Positions 12,227 to 19,501 of a stretch of DNA of 64,000 bases are shown here, piece after piece. The position numbers and the translations under genes were made by a program. The notes beneath the pieces were generated by a model. The model saw only the letters and a list, made by a program, of their open reading frames with translations. It did not search any database and was not told the origin of the DNA. The stretch comes from Calothrix sp. PCC 7507 (GTDB lineage Bacteria; Cyanobacteriota; Cyanobacteriia; Cyanobacteriales; Nostocaceae): NCBI RefSeq assembly GCF_000316575.1, contig NC_019682.1, forward strand, positions 1 through 64,000. The letters run 5' to 3'. Numbering within the stretch: position 1 is the first letter of the stretch; each line of letters opens with the position of its first letter.

Positions 12227-13408
12227 TCAAGATTTTTTGGATTTTTTCCTTGCTTTATCTCGCACTTGTTGATTTAATAAATACCCAAAGCCGACGGACT
12301 CTAAACGAGAAACAAATTCTTCGCGGGTATTACCCAGTGCTTTAGCAGTAGCGTCAATATTCCAGTTATATAAGTCTAGCTGACTGAGTAAATAAACTCG
12401 GCGAGTTTGGGCGGCTGATAAGCGGTAAGTTTTGAGATATTCTAGTTCGCCATCTTCTCGAATTATCACTTCTCCAATGTGGTTTTCATCTTTGGGATTG
12501 AGGTTAGTGATAAACCGTTGCAGCATAAACGGCCCAGCAGTGTAAACTATTTGCGATCGCAGTGAACGCTGTAATAATCCCTCAGCCATAAACCCTTGAA
12601 AAGATGCCCAATCCGATCGCATTTGCGCGATCGCACCCCTCAAATCTGCCAAACTATGAATCTTGGCATCATCTACAGATAAAGACATAGGGGAAGTCGC
12701 ATCACAAAACAAGCTATTCTGGTAAATTAACTCACCATAAAAGTCTTCTAGCAAACTGGTATGCAAAACTCGGTAGTCTTCTGGAGTCGGAACCACAAAA
12801 GCAGAGGCTAAAGTTTCCGCCACAAATACCAAAACTCCCACCTGTTGTTGATGAATCTCAAACACCCGCAAAGCATCTTCCAACCCCGCAATATAACGTC
12901 CACTTATAGAGAGTTCGTAGCGTGAACCCAACCCGTGAGCCAGCGCATACTTAGAATACTCACTCCAAGCAATATCAGGGCCAGAAAAAAACAAGGATAA
13001 AAATCCTTCCATCGCCAAATGCAGAGGTAAAAATCTCAGTTGGTTAGCTGATTCTCGCTTCGCCATGCGATGCATCAACCGCACACTCGCACATCCGCAA
13101 TCCAACCGCTTACCGTCAGCCTTCATCATCTGTCCACCAAAGGCTGCAACCGGGCTACCATCATCACTCCAAGACATCACCAAGCCATGAGGTACATAAG
13201 AAAAGTATTTCATCCCTGGTTCCGTCATCTTACCTTCTAAAGAGACAGCAGTAATATCTTCATTGTAAGAACGGCGAAATAAACGCAAGTCTCCCCGCAC
13301 CTTTCGCCGCAGCAATGGCACAATCCGCACTGAACCACGTACTTGAGAAGGTGCAATTTCTAATCCTTTTAAAGATATATCTGTTAATAGTTTGTTTTTG
13401 GATGCCAT
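12227..13408 (-). CDS. Unknown protein with C-terminal Fis-like helix-turn-helix (ARPP-like?)
   Basis: 393-residue protein without a securely named family. The body (residues 1-330) has GLEIAPSQVRGSVRIVPLLRR near the start and a beta-rich pattern; from memory it resembles the ARPP (ADP-ribosylglycohydrolase/rhodanese-phosphatase-associated) domains described in stress and Ter-linked systems, but this is not certain. Residues about 348-375 (NWNIDATAKALGNTREEFV followed by SRLESVGFGYLL) match the spacing of Fis-type HTH units, and the end is strongly basic (KARKKSKKS). A nucleic-acid-binding role is therefore possible. It shares strand with the vWA gene upstream, separated by a MITE and a minisatellite. 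Confidence 0.7.
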   Translation of the reverse strand: MASKNKLLTDISLKGLEIAPSQVRGSVRIVPLLRRKVRGDLRLFRRSYNEDITAVSLEGKMTEPGMKYFSYVPHGLVMSWSDDGSPVAAFGGQMMKADGKRLDCGCASVRLMHRMAKRESANQLRFLPLHLAMEGFLSLFFSGPDIAWSEYSKYALAHGLGSRYELSISGRYIAGLEDALRVFEIHQQQVGVLVFVAETLASAFVVPTPEDYRVLHTSLLEDFYGELIYQNSLFCDATSPMSLSVDDAKIHSLADLRGAIAQMRSDWASFQGFMAEGLLQRSLRSQIVYTAGPFMLQRFITNLNPKDENHIGEVIIREDGELEYLKTYRLSAAQTRRVYLLSQLDLYNWNIDATAKALGNTREEFVSRLESVGFGYLLNQQVRDKARKKSKKS

Positions 13409-13475: not shown

Positions 13476-13648
13476 GAGGATGTTTGAAAAGTTTTGGGCG
13501 AATATAATTCGCTACTACACAAGCAAAGTCGCCTGGTGCGGACTAACACAAAATCAAGGTTTTTAACCCACGTAGGTGGGTTTTGTCTGTGTAGCCGCGA
13601 TTTCTAATCGCTGGGGGTAGTATTAATTTAGACTTTTCAAACACCCTC
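13476..13648. mobile_element. 173-bp MITE with 17-bp inverted ends and TTA target duplication
   Basis: Ends are GAGGATGTTTGAAAAGT (left) and the complement of GAGGGTGTTTGAAAAGT (right), one mismatch in 17. Each end is flanked by TTA in direct orientation (13473-13475 and 13649-13651), a TNA-type duplication as made by IS5-family (IS427/IS1031-group) transposases. No ORF is inside; the interior has palindromes such as GCGAATATAATTCGC-like and CCCACGTAGGTGGG segments. A single end of the same type is at 31062-31076, and an interior-like stretch is near 23988-24020. This is direct sequence evidence; the transposase would be supplied elsewhere. Confidence 0.8.
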
Positions 13649-13653
13649 TTAGA

Positions 13654-13884
13654 GTTCCAAGTGAGAAGTTTTGTGTTCCGAACGAGAAGTTTCGTGTTCT
13701 GAACGAGAAGTTTCGTGTTTCAAGTGAGAAGCTTCGTGTTCTGAACGAGAAGTTTCGTGTTCCAAGTGAGAAGTTTCGTGTTCCAAGTGAGAAGTTTCGT
13801 GTTCCGAACGAGAAGCTTCGTGTTCCAAGTGAGAAGTTTCGTGTTCCGAACGAGAAGTTTCGTGTTCTGAGCCTGAAGTCAATA
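13654..13884. repeat. 21-bp minisatellite, 10 units plus one degenerate
   Basis: Ten contiguous 21-bp units (13654-13863) of the form GTTC(C/T)(A/G)A(G/A)(T/C)GAGAAG(T/C)TT(C/T)GT, then one decayed unit to 13884. Two sub-types alternate irregularly (CAAGTG and GAACG cores). Because 21 is a multiple of three, several frames stay open through the array; on the minus strand one encodes a SEHETSR/LEHETSH heptad and another a TRNFSFG heptad. No ribosome site or conserved protein supports translation. The array starts three bases after the MITE's target duplication, in the spacer between two genes. Confidence 0.85.
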
Positions 13885-13929
13885 GTGGCATAGCAAAACC
13901 TTACACCAATCATCTTTCAAGCCCATGCC

Positions 13930-15363
13930 CTATTTCCCATTCCCCAACATTTCCTTAACTCGTTCCGCCAAATATGATTCCAATTCCGACAAAGGCGCAG
14001 AACCGTCGGCAAATCGAGCAAAACCCAGCATGGTTGGTAAATCTTCTGCGTCTCTCAACCCCACCGTTGGGATAGTTGGGCTGAGGTTACGCAAAGAAAA
14101 ATCTTCAGAATTAAACACAGGGTTGCAGTGGATGATGGAAGTACGCCGCCCAGTGTCTAATTTAGTGCGGAATACCCGCAGTACTTCCGCAGCGCCGTTA
14201 GGCGGAGAGTTTTCGCAACCGTCGGAAACAATCACTACCAACTCCGCCCCAGAACCCAAGGCTGCTAACAGTGGTGTGGCTAAGTCAGTTTGTCCACGGG
14301 GACGGACTTGTAAGGTATCTTCTACGGGTACTGTCCAAAAAGCTCGATATTCTTTCGCAGCAGCTTGGAGTAAATAATGACTAGCCAGCGCTACACCCAA
14401 AGGACGACGGCGTTTTTCACTAGATCCAAAACTGGAGTAGCTGCAATCCAAGACAGCTGCAACTCGTCCTAGTTTTAAAGGTGCTTTTATCAACACTGAT
14501 CGCGCCGATCGCTCTAAAGCTTGATGGAAAATATCCCACTGCTGTTGTCGAGTCTCCCACGGCAAGGAAAGTATATATAAAGCTAATTTAGTCAAGGGCA
14601 AACGTCCAAAATCTAAGTCAATTTCTACTTTCTCAGTACGTTCTGCAGCACCTTGGAAACGCAATTTTTCCCCCACAGTCATTTGTTGTTGAATCCCCGA
14701 CAAAAAAACATGACGAGGAATTTTGTGTTTGACTGCTAATCCTTCTGCAACCGTGAAAGGCAGATGATAAACAGCTTCAGCGCTATAGTGTGCTTGACGA
14801 AACTGCTCAAATAATTTGGTTTCATACACCTTTTGTTTCCAGTTGCGGAAGAGAAAAGTACCTAATTCCCCCTGGAGTTTGAGGTGTGCGTGAGCTGCGA
14901 TCGCTCTCACTTTCGGGCGATACTTCACCGCATCAAAACTCACATCCCGGCGCATACTCAGATAATCACGAGCGATCGCCCGACTGCGACGGTTATTAAT
15001 ATGGCGTTGACGTAACTGTTGCAACACACCCCAAGCTCGTTGTGGAGGTAAAGCGTTGAGTGCATGAGCAATCAGCGCCCCTTCTTCTTCCCGGTGTTCT
15101 TTAGCGACATCTCGTCCCGTCGCCAACAACTTCAGGATAATCTCCACTTGATTAAAATGATTGATACCCACCGCCAAACAACGGGCATATAACAGACGGT
15201 AATTACCCAAAATATAGTCGTGTAAAAAGTCAATTGATACCCGCTGCCCATAAGCATCATCATAAAACTCACGTTGTCCAGTGCAAGCCAGACAAGCATT
15301 GATAAACATCACCAAATCTTCCCGCGCCACCTGTTCAACACGGTTAATAGAGTTAGTATTCAT
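13930..15363 (-). CDS. vWA-domain protein with N-terminal helical (TROVE/HEAT-like) region
   Basis: 477 residues from the ATG at 15363. Residues about 1-285 are predicted mostly helical, with repeated amphipathic segments (VEIILKLLATGRDV, GALIAHALNALPPQRAW, RAIAAHAHLKLQGELG). Residues about 295-470 form a von Willebrand A domain with a full MIDAS: D-C-S-Y-S in AAVLDCSYSSFG, T in RGQTDLATPL, D in VVIVSDGCEN. A helical solenoid before a MIDAS-containing vWA domain is the plan of Ro60/Rsr RNA-binding proteins; the length (about 530 in Ro) and sequence are divergent, so homology is inferred, not shown. Two folded repeat elements lie just upstream. Confidence 0.8.
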   Translation of the reverse strand: MNTNSINRVEQVAREDLVMFINACLACTGQREFYDDAYGQRVSIDFLHDYILGNYRLLYARCLAVGINHFNQVEIILKLLATGRDVAKEHREEEGALIAHALNALPPQRAWGVLQQLRQRHINNRRSRAIARDYLSMRRDVSFDAVKYRPKVRAIAAHAHLKLQGELGTFLFRNWKQKVYETKLFEQFRQAHYSAEAVYHLPFTVAEGLAVKHKIPRHVFLSGIQQQMTVGEKLRFQGAAERTEKVEIDLDFGRLPLTKLALYILSLPWETRQQQWDIFHQALERSARSVLIKAPLKLGRVAAVLDCSYSSFGSSEKRRRPLGVALASHYLLQAAAKEYRAFWTVPVEDTLQVRPRGQTDLATPLLAALGSGAELVVIVSDGCENSPPNGAAEVLRVFRTKLDTGRRTSIIHCNPVFNSEDFSLRNLSPTIPTVGLRDAEDLPTMLGFARFADGSAPLSELESYLAERVKEMLGNGK

Positions 15364-15403
15364 AATCAATTGGTAGGGACGGGGAAACCCCGCCCTCTGA
15401 AAA

Positions 15404-15530
15404 TATTAAATGTTTTAAATTTTAAATTCCCTGGAGGGGTTGCTGTTCGGGGAAAGGCGGCACGACTGACTAGGACAGGTTTACAATCTGGGTTCGGAAG
15501 TCGTACCAGAGTCCCGCGAACAGCAAGACT
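15404..15530. ncRNA. Candidate structured RNA element, copy A
   Basis: First copy of a duplicated ~123-nt element. A 10-bp closing stem pairs TTGCTGTTCG (15440-15449) with CGAACAGCAA (15517-15526), extended by GGG with CCC; an inner stem pairs ACGAC (15462) with GTCGT (15500); an apical 15-nt hairpin at 15476-15490 pairs CAGGTT with AATCTG. A small CCC/GGG hairpin precedes the closing stem. Compared with copy B, the apical stem has changed sequence but kept pairing. Strand is uncertain: the apical stem pairs best as plus-strand RNA, the inner stem as minus-strand RNA. A mobile DNA hairpin element is an alternative. Confidence 0.55.
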
Positions 15531-15652
15531 GAATCAGTGTACAGTTGTAGAGATTCGATTAATCACATCTCTACAGTAAAGTACCTGGATATGGTGGGCA
15601 GTGCCCACCCTACAAATACTTAGATTTTTTCAACAATTAAACCAGGTTGCTA

Positions 15653-15779
15653 TATTAAATATTTTAAATTTTGCATTCCCCAGAGGGGTTGCTGTTCGGG
15701 GAAAGGACAGCACGACTATGTTGGACAACTTAACAGGTTGGAACGGAAGTCGTACCAGAGTCCCGCGAACAGCAAAACT
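15653..15779. ncRNA. Candidate structured RNA element, copy B
   Basis: Second copy, 249 bp downstream of copy A, same orientation. Closing stem TTGCTGTTCG (15689-15698) with CGAACAGCAA (15766-15775), inner stem ACGAC (15712) with GTCGT (15749), apical hairpin CAACTT with AGGTTG (15726-15740), and a CCCC/GGGG hairpin at 15678-15688. Conserved blocks are GGTTGCTGTTCGGGGAAAGG and GGAAGTCGTACCAGAGTCCC; the variable part is confined to the apical arm. The flanking TATTAAAT...TTTTAAATTTT is also duplicated, so the repeat unit includes an AT-rich leader. No T-run follows, so no standard terminator is seen. Confidence 0.55.
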
Positions 15780-15782
15780 GAT

Positions 15783-16151
15783 TTAAACATGACAAAATTG
15801 TTCACTTTGTGCAATTTTCTCAAGTAATAACTCAGCAGCTTTGCTCAAGGAAGTCACGAAAACACCAACTTCACTATTAGCATCAGATGTTAACCAAATA
15901 CCCTTGAGAATAACTTCCACCCACGAGGCATCACAAGGGCAAAGTTCAATCATATTGGCTGGAGCTAGCTTTTCTAAATCAGCTAGATCCGACAATTGAG
16001 CAGGTATCACAAAAGCAGCCGTGCTAGGTTTCATATAAATTTGTGTAGCAGCACTCAAAGCCAAGACTACTCTTTTATTCACCCAATTTTCCCAAGGTTC
16101 ATTGATCAGCTCTAGGTTAAAGCTATTCTCGGCGTAGGTAAGTTTTAGCAT
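15783..16151 (-). CDS. Hypothetical protein (122 aa)
   Basis: Small soluble protein I recognise only as a type of hypothetical found repeatedly in filamentous cyanobacteria, starting MLKLTYAENSFNLELINEPW and containing RVVLALSAATQIYMKPSTAAF. It has no catalytic motif, signal peptide or membrane span. The stop lies within a few bases of structured element copy B and the start is 252 bp from the divergent NACHT gene. That position, sharing a divergent control region with the NACHT gene, could mean a functional link but nothing in the sequence shows it. Confidence 0.7.
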   Translation of the reverse strand: MLKLTYAENSFNLELINEPWENWVNKRVVLALSAATQIYMKPSTAAFVIPAQLSDLADLEKLAPANMIELCPCDASWVEVILKGIWLTSDANSEVGVFVTSLSKAAELLLEKIAQSEQFCHV

Positions 16152-16383: not shown

Positions 16384-16402
16384 CCGAACTTTGTGGATAG
16401 CG

Positions 16403-19400
16403 ATGGCAAGAACGAGTTATGGCCCAGAAGTAAAAAGGCGATCGCGTCGCTTATTAGGAGCGTTGTTAGTTTATGCTAACGATGAAACAGACTGTCGGGA
16501 TGAATCAGTCTTAGCCAGCTTGCGCCCCCAAATCCTCACTCGTTGGCAATCAGAACATCGTTTGGTTGTCAGGACAAAAGTCAGATTCTTGGAGGCTTTG
16601 ACAGGTTTAGCCTCAGATGAAAGTCAATTAAACGCCCAACAAATCAAAGAAGCCTTACAAAGATTTTCCGATTTCTTAGAAATTCTCGAAGATAATCGTC
16701 CCTCTCGTAGCGGTTCCGAAACTTGGCACTTCACCCTCAAACTGTGGCACAAACGCCAAAACATCGCAGCCAACTTGCAACAATTTGACATTGAATGGGA
16801 ACACCGCCGCCCCGAAAAGTCAAAACAAGTCACTGGAGACACCAAAAAAGAGGTAGGGGAGCAGCCCTTCGACTTCGCTCAGGACAAGGGTGCAGGGAGC
16901 AAGGGAGAGGATTTACAGGTTTTGCCTAATAATGGCAAGCGCGATCGCTTATCCTCCCATCATCTTCCCAATTGGCAGCAACTTTGCCGCAGCAATTTAG
17001 AAACGCAAAATCACAGACGACTCACCACCAATCCCCTCACCAGCGCCGATGGTGTCACTTTTGAACTAGATCAGGTTTATATCCCCTTGGGATTAGTGGA
17101 ACGCAAACAACGTCTACGTCATCGGGGTGATGTGACTCCTCAAGAGGGTTCACGATTATACGAACCAGAAGACGCTGAATTTACTCCAACTTTTGACCAT
17201 AATCAATTTATCCAACATTGCGCCCAGCAAAAAACCAGCCAGCGCATCGCCATTATCGGAGAACCAGGGGCAGGAAAAACTACTTTGCTCCAGAAAGTTG
17301 CCGCATGGATATTAGATAACACTGAAGACTTGCCCATTTGGGTGTCTCTAGCAGACTTACAAGGTAAAACTTTAGAGCAATACCTCATTCAAGATTGGCT
17401 ACCCTCCGCTACCCGTAAGCTGCGCGTTCCTCCAGAAATAGAAGAAGCATTTTGCGAACAGTTCAATCAAGGAAGGGTTTGGTTACTTTTGGATGCTGTT
17501 GATGAAATGGCTATTGAATCCAGCCACGCCCTAGCCAAAATTGCCAGCTTTTTAAAAGGTTGGGTAGCAGATTCCACCATCATCCTCACTTGTCGGCTCA
17601 ACGTTTGGGATGGAGGTAAAAATGCACTAGAGTCTTTTAATGTCTATCGCAACCTGAATTTTACTTACAGTCATGAACTCTCTCCCCATTCCAACAAAGT
17701 AGAACAGTTCATTCAACGGTGGTTTCAAGACAATCCCACCTGTGGAGACAGTCTGCGGACAGAATTAAATCAACCAGAACGACGACGGCTGAAAGATGCA
17801 GTCAAAAACCCCCTACGCTTGGCGCTGTTGTGTCGTATTTGGGGATTAGGACAAGGAGGATTACCCAACACCAAAGCGATGCTGTATGAGCAGTTTGTGC
17901 AGTCAATTTATGAGTGGAAACACGATCGCTTTCCGACAACTCCAGCCCAACGACAGCGGTTAAATCATGGGCTAGGAGAATTAGCACTGTTGGCTATAGC
18001 CCAAGAAAAAACCAAGTTTCGTCTGCGACATCGCTTTATCTGTGAGGTTTTAGGCACTGCTGATGATGGTTTATTTTCATTGGCATTACAGTTAGGTTGG
18101 CTCAATCAGGTGGGTATATCAGAAACTCAAGGGGAAAAAGTTTATGCCTTTTACCATCCCACTTTTCAAGAATACTTTGCTGCTCAAGCTGTCACTGATT
18201 GGCGTTTCTTTTTAAATCACACATTAGGAAGCAGGGACTGGGGACTGGGGACTAGGGACTGGGGACTAGGAAGTAGTGGAAAATTTCCTGATTACCCAAT
18301 CCCCAATCCCTGGGCACTGAGCGAAGTCGAAGTGCAATCCCCAATCCCCAGTTACCGCATTTTCGAGTCACAATGGCGGGAGGTAATTCTGCTGTGGTTA
18401 GGTAGAGAGGATATCCCACGGGCAGATAAAGAGGAATTTATGCAAGCATTAATTGAGTTTTCTGATGGCTGCGGGGGATGCTATCACTATCAAGCCTATT
18501 TTCTGGCAGCCCAAGGAATTGCTGAGTTTGCAGATTGCCTCAAAGCTGATGATATTGTTCAGCAATTGATTAAGTGGCGTTTTGGCTATTTCCATGAGAA
18601 AAAACAAAAGTGGTGGAGATATCCGCCGCCAATTATTGAGGGGGCGCGGGTAGCTTTATTAAAGACCGATCGCCCAAAAGCGATCGCTGCTTTAGAGCAG
18701 TTTATCCAGTCCAACCGGAACGTATTCGATAGCTGGAATGCCGCTTATAGCTTGGGTAAAGTCTTTGATCCAGGTAATAAAATTGCGATCGCTGCTTTAG
18801 AAACACTCGCTGCCACAGTCCGCCATGAAACAATTCGTTGGCAAGCGGCGTATAATCTAGGAAGGGTAGACCCTGGCAACCAAACAGCCATTACAGCCCT
18901 AGTGGAAATTATTGCTACCACCAAAAATGAATCAACCCGTCGCAAAGCCGCTTACAGTTTAGGGAAACTTGATTTTGAGAATGCGATTGCCATTTCCACA
19001 TTAGAGCAAATCGCCGCATCTGCCACAGATATATCCCAGCGACGACAAGCCACAGAAAACCTCAAAGCACTTCGTTCACCTGAACCCTTAGACTTGAGCA
19101 AACCCTCCCCATCTTCCCCTCTTCCTTCCTCCTCCCCTGCCCGCCTTTCCTCTTTAGTTCGCGGCATCACATCCTGTGAAGATGAAGATACCCGCAGACG
19201 CAAAGCCTACAAATTGGCACAGCTTGATCCAGGGAATCAAATGGCATTTAACACCTTATTGCAACTCCTCAAGTCAAGCAATAGTGAATCAGTTCGCAAG
19301 CGTACAGCAGATAATTTAAAAGAAATACTCCTCGATGCACAAATGCCAGTAGTTATTGCATCATTAAAAAATTACTTTGATGATGGAATCTGCGAACATG

Positions 19401-19501
19401 AATTAGAACAATTCCGCGAGTGTTATAAACTTATTTGGCACTGTGCAGGAACTATGAAATATGAAGAATTTTATCAAATTTGGCACTATTCATCATCATA
19501 G
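16403..19501 (+). CDS. NACHT-domain NTPase with C-terminal HEAT-like repeats (bacterial NLR-like)
   Basis: 1032 residues from ATG 16403. The N-terminal 100 residues (SYGPEVKRRSRRLLGALLVYAND...VRTKVRFLEALTG) are a helical module common on cyanobacterial NACHT proteins. The STAND NTPase follows, with Walker A GEPGAGKTTLLQ near residue 286, Walker B WLLLDAVDEM near 362, and a LTCRLNVWD sensor region. HEAT-like repeats with the motif DPGN-x-AI-x-AL-x(n)-R-x-KAAYSLGK occupy about 750-890 and 930-1000. Such proteins sense a ligand and oligomerise; several bacterial NACHT proteins are antiphage. No separate effector enzyme domain is seen. Two low-complexity stretches derive from dispersed repeats (residues about 153-172 and 609-650). 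Confidence 0.9.
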   Translation: MARTSYGPEVKRRSRRLLGALLVYANDETDCRDESVLASLRPQILTRWQSEHRLVVRTKVRFLEALTGLASDESQLNAQQIKEALQRFSDFLEILEDNRPSRSGSETWHFTLKLWHKRQNIAANLQQFDIEWEHRRPEKSKQVTGDTKKEVGEQPFDFAQDKGAGSKGEDLQVLPNNGKRDRLSSHHLPNWQQLCRSNLETQNHRRLTTNPLTSADGVTFELDQVYIPLGLVERKQRLRHRGDVTPQEGSRLYEPEDAEFTPTFDHNQFIQHCAQQKTSQRIAIIGEPGAGKTTLLQKVAAWILDNTEDLPIWVSLADLQGKTLEQYLIQDWLPSATRKLRVPPEIEEAFCEQFNQGRVWLLLDAVDEMAIESSHALAKIASFLKGWVADSTIILTCRLNVWDGGKNALESFNVYRNLNFTYSHELSPHSNKVEQFIQRWFQDNPTCGDSLRTELNQPERRRLKDAVKNPLRLALLCRIWGLGQGGLPNTKAMLYEQFVQSIYEWKHDRFPTTPAQRQRLNHGLGELALLAIAQEKTKFRLRHRFICEVLGTADDGLFSLALQLGWLNQVGISETQGEKVYAFYHPTFQEYFAAQAVTDWRFFLNHTLGSRDWGLGTRDWGLGSSGKFPDYPIPNPWALSEVEVQSPIPSYRIFESQWREVILLWLGREDIPRADKEEFMQALIEFSDGCGGCYHYQAYFLAAQGIAEFADCLKADDIVQQLIKWRFGYFHEKKQKWWRYPPPIIEGARVALLKTDRPKAIAALEQFIQSNRNVFDSWNAAYSLGKVFDPGNKIAIAALETLAATVRHETIRWQAAYNLGRVDPGNQTAITALVEIIATTKNESTRRKAAYSLGKLDFENAIAISTLEQIAASATDISQRRQATENLKALRSPEPLDLSKPSPSSPLPSSSPARLSSLVRGITSCEDEDTRRRKAYKLAQLDPGNQMAFNTLLQLLKSSNSESVRKRTADNLKEILLDAQMPVVIASLKNYFDDGICEHELEQFRECYKLIWHCAGTMKYEEFYQIWHYSSS
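18229..18345 (+). repeat. Intergenic-type tandem repeats inside the NACHT coding region
   Basis: Seven-base GGGACTG units followed by a GAGCGAAGTCGAAGTGCA element, normally found between genes here, are inserted in frame in the NACHT gene. They encode a low-complexity linker beginning GSRDWGLGTRDWGLG between the NTPase part and the repeat domain. The reading frame is kept. Confidence 0.8.

Follow-up and report, generated by a model that had tools for sequence, protein, structure and literature searches.

Ro60 and its Y RNAs form a particle that has been kept from bacteria to humans, and its role is still debated. Bacterial Y RNAs (YrlA, RF02553, and the Y RNA of D. radiodurans) are about 90–100 nt long, have paired ends and a stem with a bulged pyrimidine, and are encoded upstream of a gene for a Ro60-fold protein, sometimes in several copies. 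The RNA described here is like them in these respects. Its stem also resembles the lower stem of vertebrate Y RNAs, where one bulged cytidine interrupts the helix; in a review, however, the bacterial Y RNAs are called not homologous with the vertebrate ones (PMC4726728). The element lies in a stretch of 64,000 nucleotides of Calothrix sp. PCC 7507 (NC_019682.1, positions 1 to 64,000; hereafter the window). It most likely consists of tandem small RNA genes, predicted to be Y-RNA-like partners of a divergent Ro60 protein (here named Ro60L) that is encoded just downstream.

The locus also resembles the ARG/ARPP conflict systems, which combine ARPP-type and vWA proteins in patchy gene sets (PMC9503650). 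That paper reads the vWA protein as a peptide-binding chaperone, and its main text contains 0 occurrences of Ro60 or Y-RNA. The vWA protein of the present locus, in contrast, is predicted to fold like Ro60 and has an RNA as its probable partner. By this comparison, some of the vWA proteins that have been interpreted as peptide chaperones of ARPP systems may be Ro60 proteins that bind RNA. Among the matches listed for open-licence PMC papers, the titles and abstract starts gave no account of the RNA or of its pairing with Ro60L.

Two copies of a folded RNA

Table 1. Coordinates of the RNA copies and of associated features in the window.
Feature	Position	Strand	Remarks
RNA copy A	15440..15526	-	base to base of P1; match of covariance model R1 at 15436-15535, 105.8 bits
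RNA copy A, P1	15440-15449/15517-15526 plus GGGA/UCCC	-	10-bp closing stem TTGCTGTTCG/CGAACAGCAA
RNA copy A, bulged C	complement of + strand base 15516	-	
RNA copy A, P2	15459-15466/15500-15507	-	
RNA copy A, P3	15476-15479/15487-15490	-	7-nt loop 15480-15486
RNA copy B	15689..15775	-	R1 match at 15685-15784, 98.6 bits
RNA copy B, closing stem	15689-15698/15766-15775		same TTGCTGTTCG/CGAACAGCAA pair
RNA copy B, bulged C	complement of + strand base 15765	-	
Candidate -10 hexamer TACACT	15536..15541	-	precedes RNA copy A; weak alone, signal rests on relatives
Ro60L	13930..15369	-	N-terminal part helical, VWA domain with MIDAS-like residues at the C-terminus; start codon probably the ATG at 15363
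ARPP-2 protein (PF22549)	12227..13408	-	Pfam E 1.6e-115; downstream of Ro60L, same strand in most relatives

The repeat starts of copies A and B are 249 nt apart, and the copies are 84% identical (blastn). For both copies and on either strand, the folding energy beats 200 of 200 dinucleotide shuffles, with z-scores of -3.4 and -3.9 on the plus strand and -4.7 and -5.4 on the minus strand. An earlier note on this DNA, made from its letters alone, had described two tandem copies with named stems, and these are present in the sequence. Two helices differ from that description. The inner stem, given as 5 bp, has 8 bp on the minus strand (GGUACGAC/GUCGUGCC, with one U-G), and the apical pairing over six positions is reduced on the RNA strand to 4 bp with a 7-nt loop. 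Of three apical changes that had been read as paired, only the change of G-C to A-T is compensatory on the RNA strand. Copy A has a mismatched A-C at the position of the G-T to C-G change, and position five is part of the loop.

The class had not been recognized in the earlier note, and Rfam 15 agrees with this: no family matched over the window at the gathering score. A scan of the element itself (15300–15900, E ≤ 10) returned 4 chance-level matches only, none of them a Y family. A known Rfam family was rejected on these two scans. ARAGORN found no tRNA in the window. Between the two copies there is a 15-nt inverted repeat at 15546–15575 (TGTAGAGATTCGATT/AATCACATCTCTACA).

Structure and covariation of the RNA family

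A hidden Markov model of the two copies detected 38 copies in total and placed the RNA at most 1.5 kb upstream of the Ro60L gene in 29 of 30 loci. Alignment A1 holds 36 of the 38 copies; both copies of locus L037 were omitted, being near-identical to those of L036. The minus-strand alignment A3 (MAFFT) has 35 copies, with one poor copy of L039 also left out, and the covariance model R1 was built from it. A larger alignment, A4, contains 92 matches (88 distinct sequences).

On the RNA strand, the consensus of P1 is 9 bp, then one bulged pyrimidine and then 4 bp (GGGA/UCCC). This stem pairs the 5' and 3' ends. Of the 88 distinct sequences, 75 have C as the bulged base and 13 have U. The internal loop after P1 opens with an invariant CU. 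P2 has 8 bp and is followed by UUCCG, which is invariant or nearly so. P3 has 4 bp and, in 80/88 distinct sequences, a loop of 7 nt. These loops carry U at position 2 (79/80) and a purine at position 6 (75/80). They were compared with the anticodon-loop consensus, and the full YUNNNRA motif is present in 53/80; by its sequence, the P3 loop resembles an anticodon loop. The conserved core of the RNA, which differs from that of bacterial Y RNAs, comprises GYGGGACU, UUCCG and CCCC.

In A3, 96.1% of 875 pair cells are paired and 17 of 25 pairs show two-sided change. Each of five measures was reached by 0 of 500 shuffles, a control that ignores relatedness. When the structure is slid along the alignment, a control that corrects for relatedness, the signal collapses too. 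The sequences of A4 were fitted to the R1 model, so that its counts lean towards the structure: 96.1% of 2195 cells are paired, 20/25 pairs have changed on both sides, 0/500 shuffles reach these values and the slid structure collapses. The element is a conserved, covarying structured RNA family on the minus strand. The strong covariation in A3 and A4 bears out the selection on a folded RNA that the earlier note had proposed. That note had also named two findings that would speak against an RNA gene, namely homologues without covariation and many dispersed copies with target duplications. Covariation is strong, and copies are not dispersed: a search of the entire 7.0-Mb genome with R1 gave only the two copies of this locus. 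Across the family, 13/69 loci carry two or three adjacent copies, which are 63–84% identical, except for one pair with 98%.

Strand and candidate promoter

The strand had been left open in the earlier note. The evidence of the family now assigns the RNA to the minus strand. In the minus reading, A3 contains 74 G-U and 12 C-A cells and A4 contains 187 and 33, respectively. Since a C-A on one strand is a G-U on the other, this excess indicates the minus strand. Consensus folding yields -34.8 kcal/mol for the minus strand versus -22.1 kcal/mol for the plus strand (-62.3 versus -57.4 with RIBOSUM scoring), and the single-sequence z-scores likewise favour the minus strand. An RNA on the plus strand was rejected on the basis of consensus folding and wobble asymmetry.

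In 55 non-redundant 60-nt upstream sequences (a set in which the row of L135 is mis-anchored), a -10-like signal, TGnTAnnnT, was counted 21 times, and 16 of the 21 occurrences begin 22–25 nt before the bulge.

Linkage of the RNA and the Ro60L gene

Within the window, the RNA copies lie upstream of the Ro60L gene on the same strand. A blastn search with copy A matched 32/149 genomes including the own genome, with three matches being short (G050, G059 and G112). The Ro60L gene (13930–15369) has matches in 39/149 genomes, 33 of them strong (E < 1e-100) and 6 weak; the strong set includes a partial gene in G135 and one split over two contigs in G024. R1 matches 35/149 genomes, and its strong matches (67 bits or more) fall in the same 33 genomes as the strong Ro60L matches. 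Two weak R1 matches lack Ro60L and are excluded from the 33: one of 30 bits in G070, at a short direct repeat, and one of 24.5 bits in G032.

A class-wide protein search was positive in 12/388 genomes and yielded nine new loci (L080–L088) from seven genomes outside A3. R1 matches 8/9 of these loci, covering at least one locus in each of the 7 genomes. A further test set consists of 78 loci found by protein profile alone, many of the cyanobacterial ones being from genomes already in A3. The RNA is found upstream and on the strand of the gene in 63/69 loci of close relatives. Of the six misses, L110, L127, L140 and L149 begin less than 300 bases from a contig end, whereas L091 and L121 do not. 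With R1 the RNA was found upstream of the Ro60L gene in myxobacteria and other phyla. The loci that are certainly new include those from Nannocystis, Minicystis, Sorangium, a Pirellulaceae, an Armatimonadetes, a Caulobacterales and a Sericytochromatia bacterium.

RNA and gene are separated in Nostoc T09 and 106C (L072 and L175). The RNA is intact there (104 and 109 bits) and stands beside a gene of the alr0857 family, its neighbour in the window, while Ro60L and ARPP-2 are elsewhere and the 8 kb upstream of Ro60L are devoid of the RNA. These two separations possibly go back to one shared event. The second RNA copy of Sorangium adjoins a stretch that matches residues 9–144 of Ro60L only, and one RNA copy of G135 (L071) has no Ro60L match within its 10 kb. 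The system is patchy among genomes and is also present on conjugative plasmids. On one of these, pNe_3 of Nostoc edaphicum (L184), XisH/XisI genes and a gene for a hypothetical protein come after RNA and Ro60L.

Predicted Ro60 fold of Ro60L

Ro60L has no match in Pfam, NCBIfam or PADLOC at E ≤ 1 and a single match in PHROGs (E 0.12). In the plasmid records seen, it is labelled 'hypothetical protein'. Unlike Rsr/Ro60, it has no recognizable TROVE domain: TROVE (PF05731) is not among the 12 Pfam families matched by any of 37 Ro60L members at E ≤ 10. An AlphaFold2 model calculated from a 37-row alignment has a mean confidence (pLDDT) of 80.8. Foldseek searches of the PDB with this model gave 7 matches at E < 0.001, all of which are Ro60/Rsr (E 1.3e-6 to 3.5e-4, identity 11–15%). 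Among 11 viral models matched at E ≤ 0.001, one is named Ro-like and one TROVE; the rest are VWA, DUF2828, DUF7788 or unnamed. Based on the model, Ro60L is predicted to have the Ro60 fold, a helical ring with a VWA domain. The MIDAS residues DxSxS and a later D are present in 37/37 rows, with T or S at the T position.

In a low-probability profile alignment, the HAHLKL segment of Ro60L (H160) is placed opposite the FHVKP motif of TROVE, which aligns with SHIKP of Ro60 (1yvp). The latter motif presumably holds His187 of the human protein. According to a review, His187 is essential for the contact with Y RNA (PMC4030889). H160, a candidate counterpart of His187, is present in 30/30 close members and in L068, where the segment reads LHIRP. 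It is absent from L062–L065 and L067, and L066 has no residues at this position.

Comparison with canonical TROVE loci

The genome of Calothrix sp. PCC 7507 has a separate canonical TROVE gene (G000:C1:5420739-5421578, L168), and a TROVE match was found in 18/60 genomes searched. In 7 of 8 TROVE loci scanned, tRNA (RF00005) and/or YrlA-like matches precede the gene; L170 has none. The YrlA matches reach 24–37 bits, which is under the Rfam cut-off (69) in every case, and some of them extend over two adjacent units. The own TROVE gene is preceded by two tRNA matches over the cut-off, and four units are visible by eye. These tRNA-like RNAs carry a long insert in the anticodon arm. The layout, with RNA upstream of the gene, is like that of the Ro60L locus, but the RNAs themselves differ, and R1 gave 0 matches at the 8 canonical loci. 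A TROVE-domain gene of Chlorogloeopsis fritschii PCC 9212 is reported to show a dramatic rise of its transcripts on erythromycin (PMC6424891); this gene is probably the canonical one.

Interpretation of the RNA and its partner

The joint occurrence of RNA and Ro60L in several phyla suggests that there is a second type of Ro ribonucleoprotein. In these phyla, sequence-diverged Ro60 proteins are accompanied by their own structured RNA, and a canonical TROVE gene with tRNA-like RNAs is present in the same genome. The RNA is not classed as a YrlA member, because neither a match to the Rfam model nor tRNA-like arms were found. By analogy to Ro60, which binds the bulged-C stem of Y RNAs, Ro60L would contact P1 where the pyrimidine is bulged out and at the invariant core, GGGACU/CCCC. 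The RNA would be stabilized by Ro60L and might act as a gate to the ring of the protein. The distal P2/P3 module with the anticodon-loop-like hairpin may recruit or mimic another factor, and ARPP-2 would be a dedicated third component.

Several observations weigh against the assignment as a Y-RNA-like partner of a Ro60 protein. The D, T and acceptor arms that make bacterial Y RNAs tRNA-like are missing from this RNA, which has the anticodon-like hairpin only, and no Rfam Y model matches it. The TM-scores of the Ro60L model to Ro60/Rsr are 0.40–0.56, and a PDB profile search with Ro60L returned no Ro60. Profile-profile comparison with TROVE gave a probability of 6% (E 0.0057, 372 columns). Pfam vWA_Ro60 is touched by 3/37 Ro60L members only, with a best E of 0.11. 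Furthermore, R1 finds the RNA at 0/9 distant-relative loci of the test set (L158–L166). At the distant relatives L062–L068 its only match is in L063 (11.8 bits, E 1.3), and it has no match at the relatives on phage L182 and plasmid L183. The -10-like signal is clear mainly in loci outside Nostoc and weak before the Nostoc copies, including those of the window. Plain TAnnnT, the only form covered by the opposite-strand control, has two adjacent peaks of 9/55 on the RNA strand versus a peak of 6/66 in that control.

The position of the RNA, upstream and on the same strand in the 63/69 loci, is also what a cis-acting leader of the Ro60L mRNA would show. In such a leader, the 5' region of the mRNA would be bound by Ro60L itself or by a ligand, and operon expression would be adjusted in this way. 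Some P1 stems end a few bases before the start codon, so that the RNA may be an mRNA leader too, which is a further point against independent RNA genes, and a run of T follows P1 in a few loci, such as L148. A leader should always be in cis, however, and in the two Nostoc genomes, which possibly share one event, the RNA is intact apart from Ro60L; this favours a trans-acting RNA. The side-by-side copies, mostly diverged, also argue against a leader, as does the -10-like signal at the RNA 5' end, although a leader could start there as well. A cis-acting leader is improbable. Even less can be said for a palindromic mobile element or repeat, the alternative named in the earlier note. It would explain the inverted repeats and the two copies, but the RNA is linked to one gene across phyla and combines covariation with conserved unpaired nucleotides. 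A mobile palindrome was rejected on the count of only two copies in the whole genome, and its probability is negligible.

Another explanation concerns purpose and is compatible with a Y-RNA-like partner of Ro60L: the RNA might chiefly be a decoy or sensor of tRNA damage, with the hairpin baiting anticodon nucleases, Ro60L retaining the cleaved RNA and a response coming from ARPP-2 or repair enzymes. The size and composition of the P3 loop are consistent with this, as are the ARPP-1 and RNA ligase genes next to distant Ro60L genes (see below) and the patchy distribution that extends to conjugative plasmids. On the other hand, no nuclease partner was found, and the clusters listed include no RNA ligase next to the close cassette. 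A 7-nt loop with U at position 2 can have other origins, the P3 stem has 4 bp and not 5, and only the 53 loops mentioned have the full motif. This explanation has a small chance of being the chief one. From the P3 loop and the RNA ligase neighbours of distant relatives, we infer a hint of a tRNA-related role. A wider proposal is rather unlikely: Ro60L, the anticodon-loop-mimic RNA and ARPP-2 might form a second class of Ro RNA-protein particles, distinct from the TROVE/Y RNA system beside it in one genome, that senses or answers tRNA cleavage in phage attack or stress.

With a Y-RNA-like partner of Ro60L, the system lets one ask which features of Y RNAs are required in a Ro particle: the bulged stem, the mimicry of tRNA or the presence of several copies. 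R1 is now available for finding this RNA.

ARPP-2, distant relatives and neighbouring genes

Neighbour clustering, with the window included, placed ARPP-2 on the strand of the gene in 56/65 Ro60L loci. Three further ARPP-2 loci exist in which the Ro60L frame was not clustered; simple calling of open reading frames is unreliable in GC-rich genomes. Among the 9 loci without ARPP-2, L093 stops at a contig end, and for L096, L125, L135 and L138 (genomes G002, G055, G130 and G141) ARPP-2 is on another contig. ARPP-2 has strong matches in 33/149 genomes, 32 of them shared with Ro60L: G032 has ARPP-2 without Ro60L and G135 has Ro60L without ARPP-2. The AlphaFold2 model of ARPP-2 (pLDDT 73.2) had no Foldseek match at E < 0.001. 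Its end gives the impression of a helix-turn-helix in the model.

Distant Ro60L relatives share 20–26% identity and have weak ARPP-2 matches nearby. Two tested neighbours of such loci are ARPP-1, and RNA ligase genes lie upstream in L064 and L067. In a blastn comparison among 7 distant upstream regions, the only long match was between L064 and L067, in the stretch that contains the RNA ligase gene; one further match covered 22 nt. L062–L067 and L183 represent a distant Ro60-like subfamily with neighbours of the ARPP-1 type, in which R1 found no convincing R1-like RNA. The relative on an Alkaliphilus plasmid is followed by a DUF6569 gene, which we take to be ARPP-1.

A minisatellite-like repeat (SRSEHETSHLEHET...) fills 13623–13913 between Ro60L and ARPP-2, and a different repeat follows Ro60L in L091 and L121. 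Next door, at 16391–19501, an EAD4-NACHT-HEAT protein is encoded, whose cluster covers 16 compared loci. It is probably a STAND-type immunity protein.
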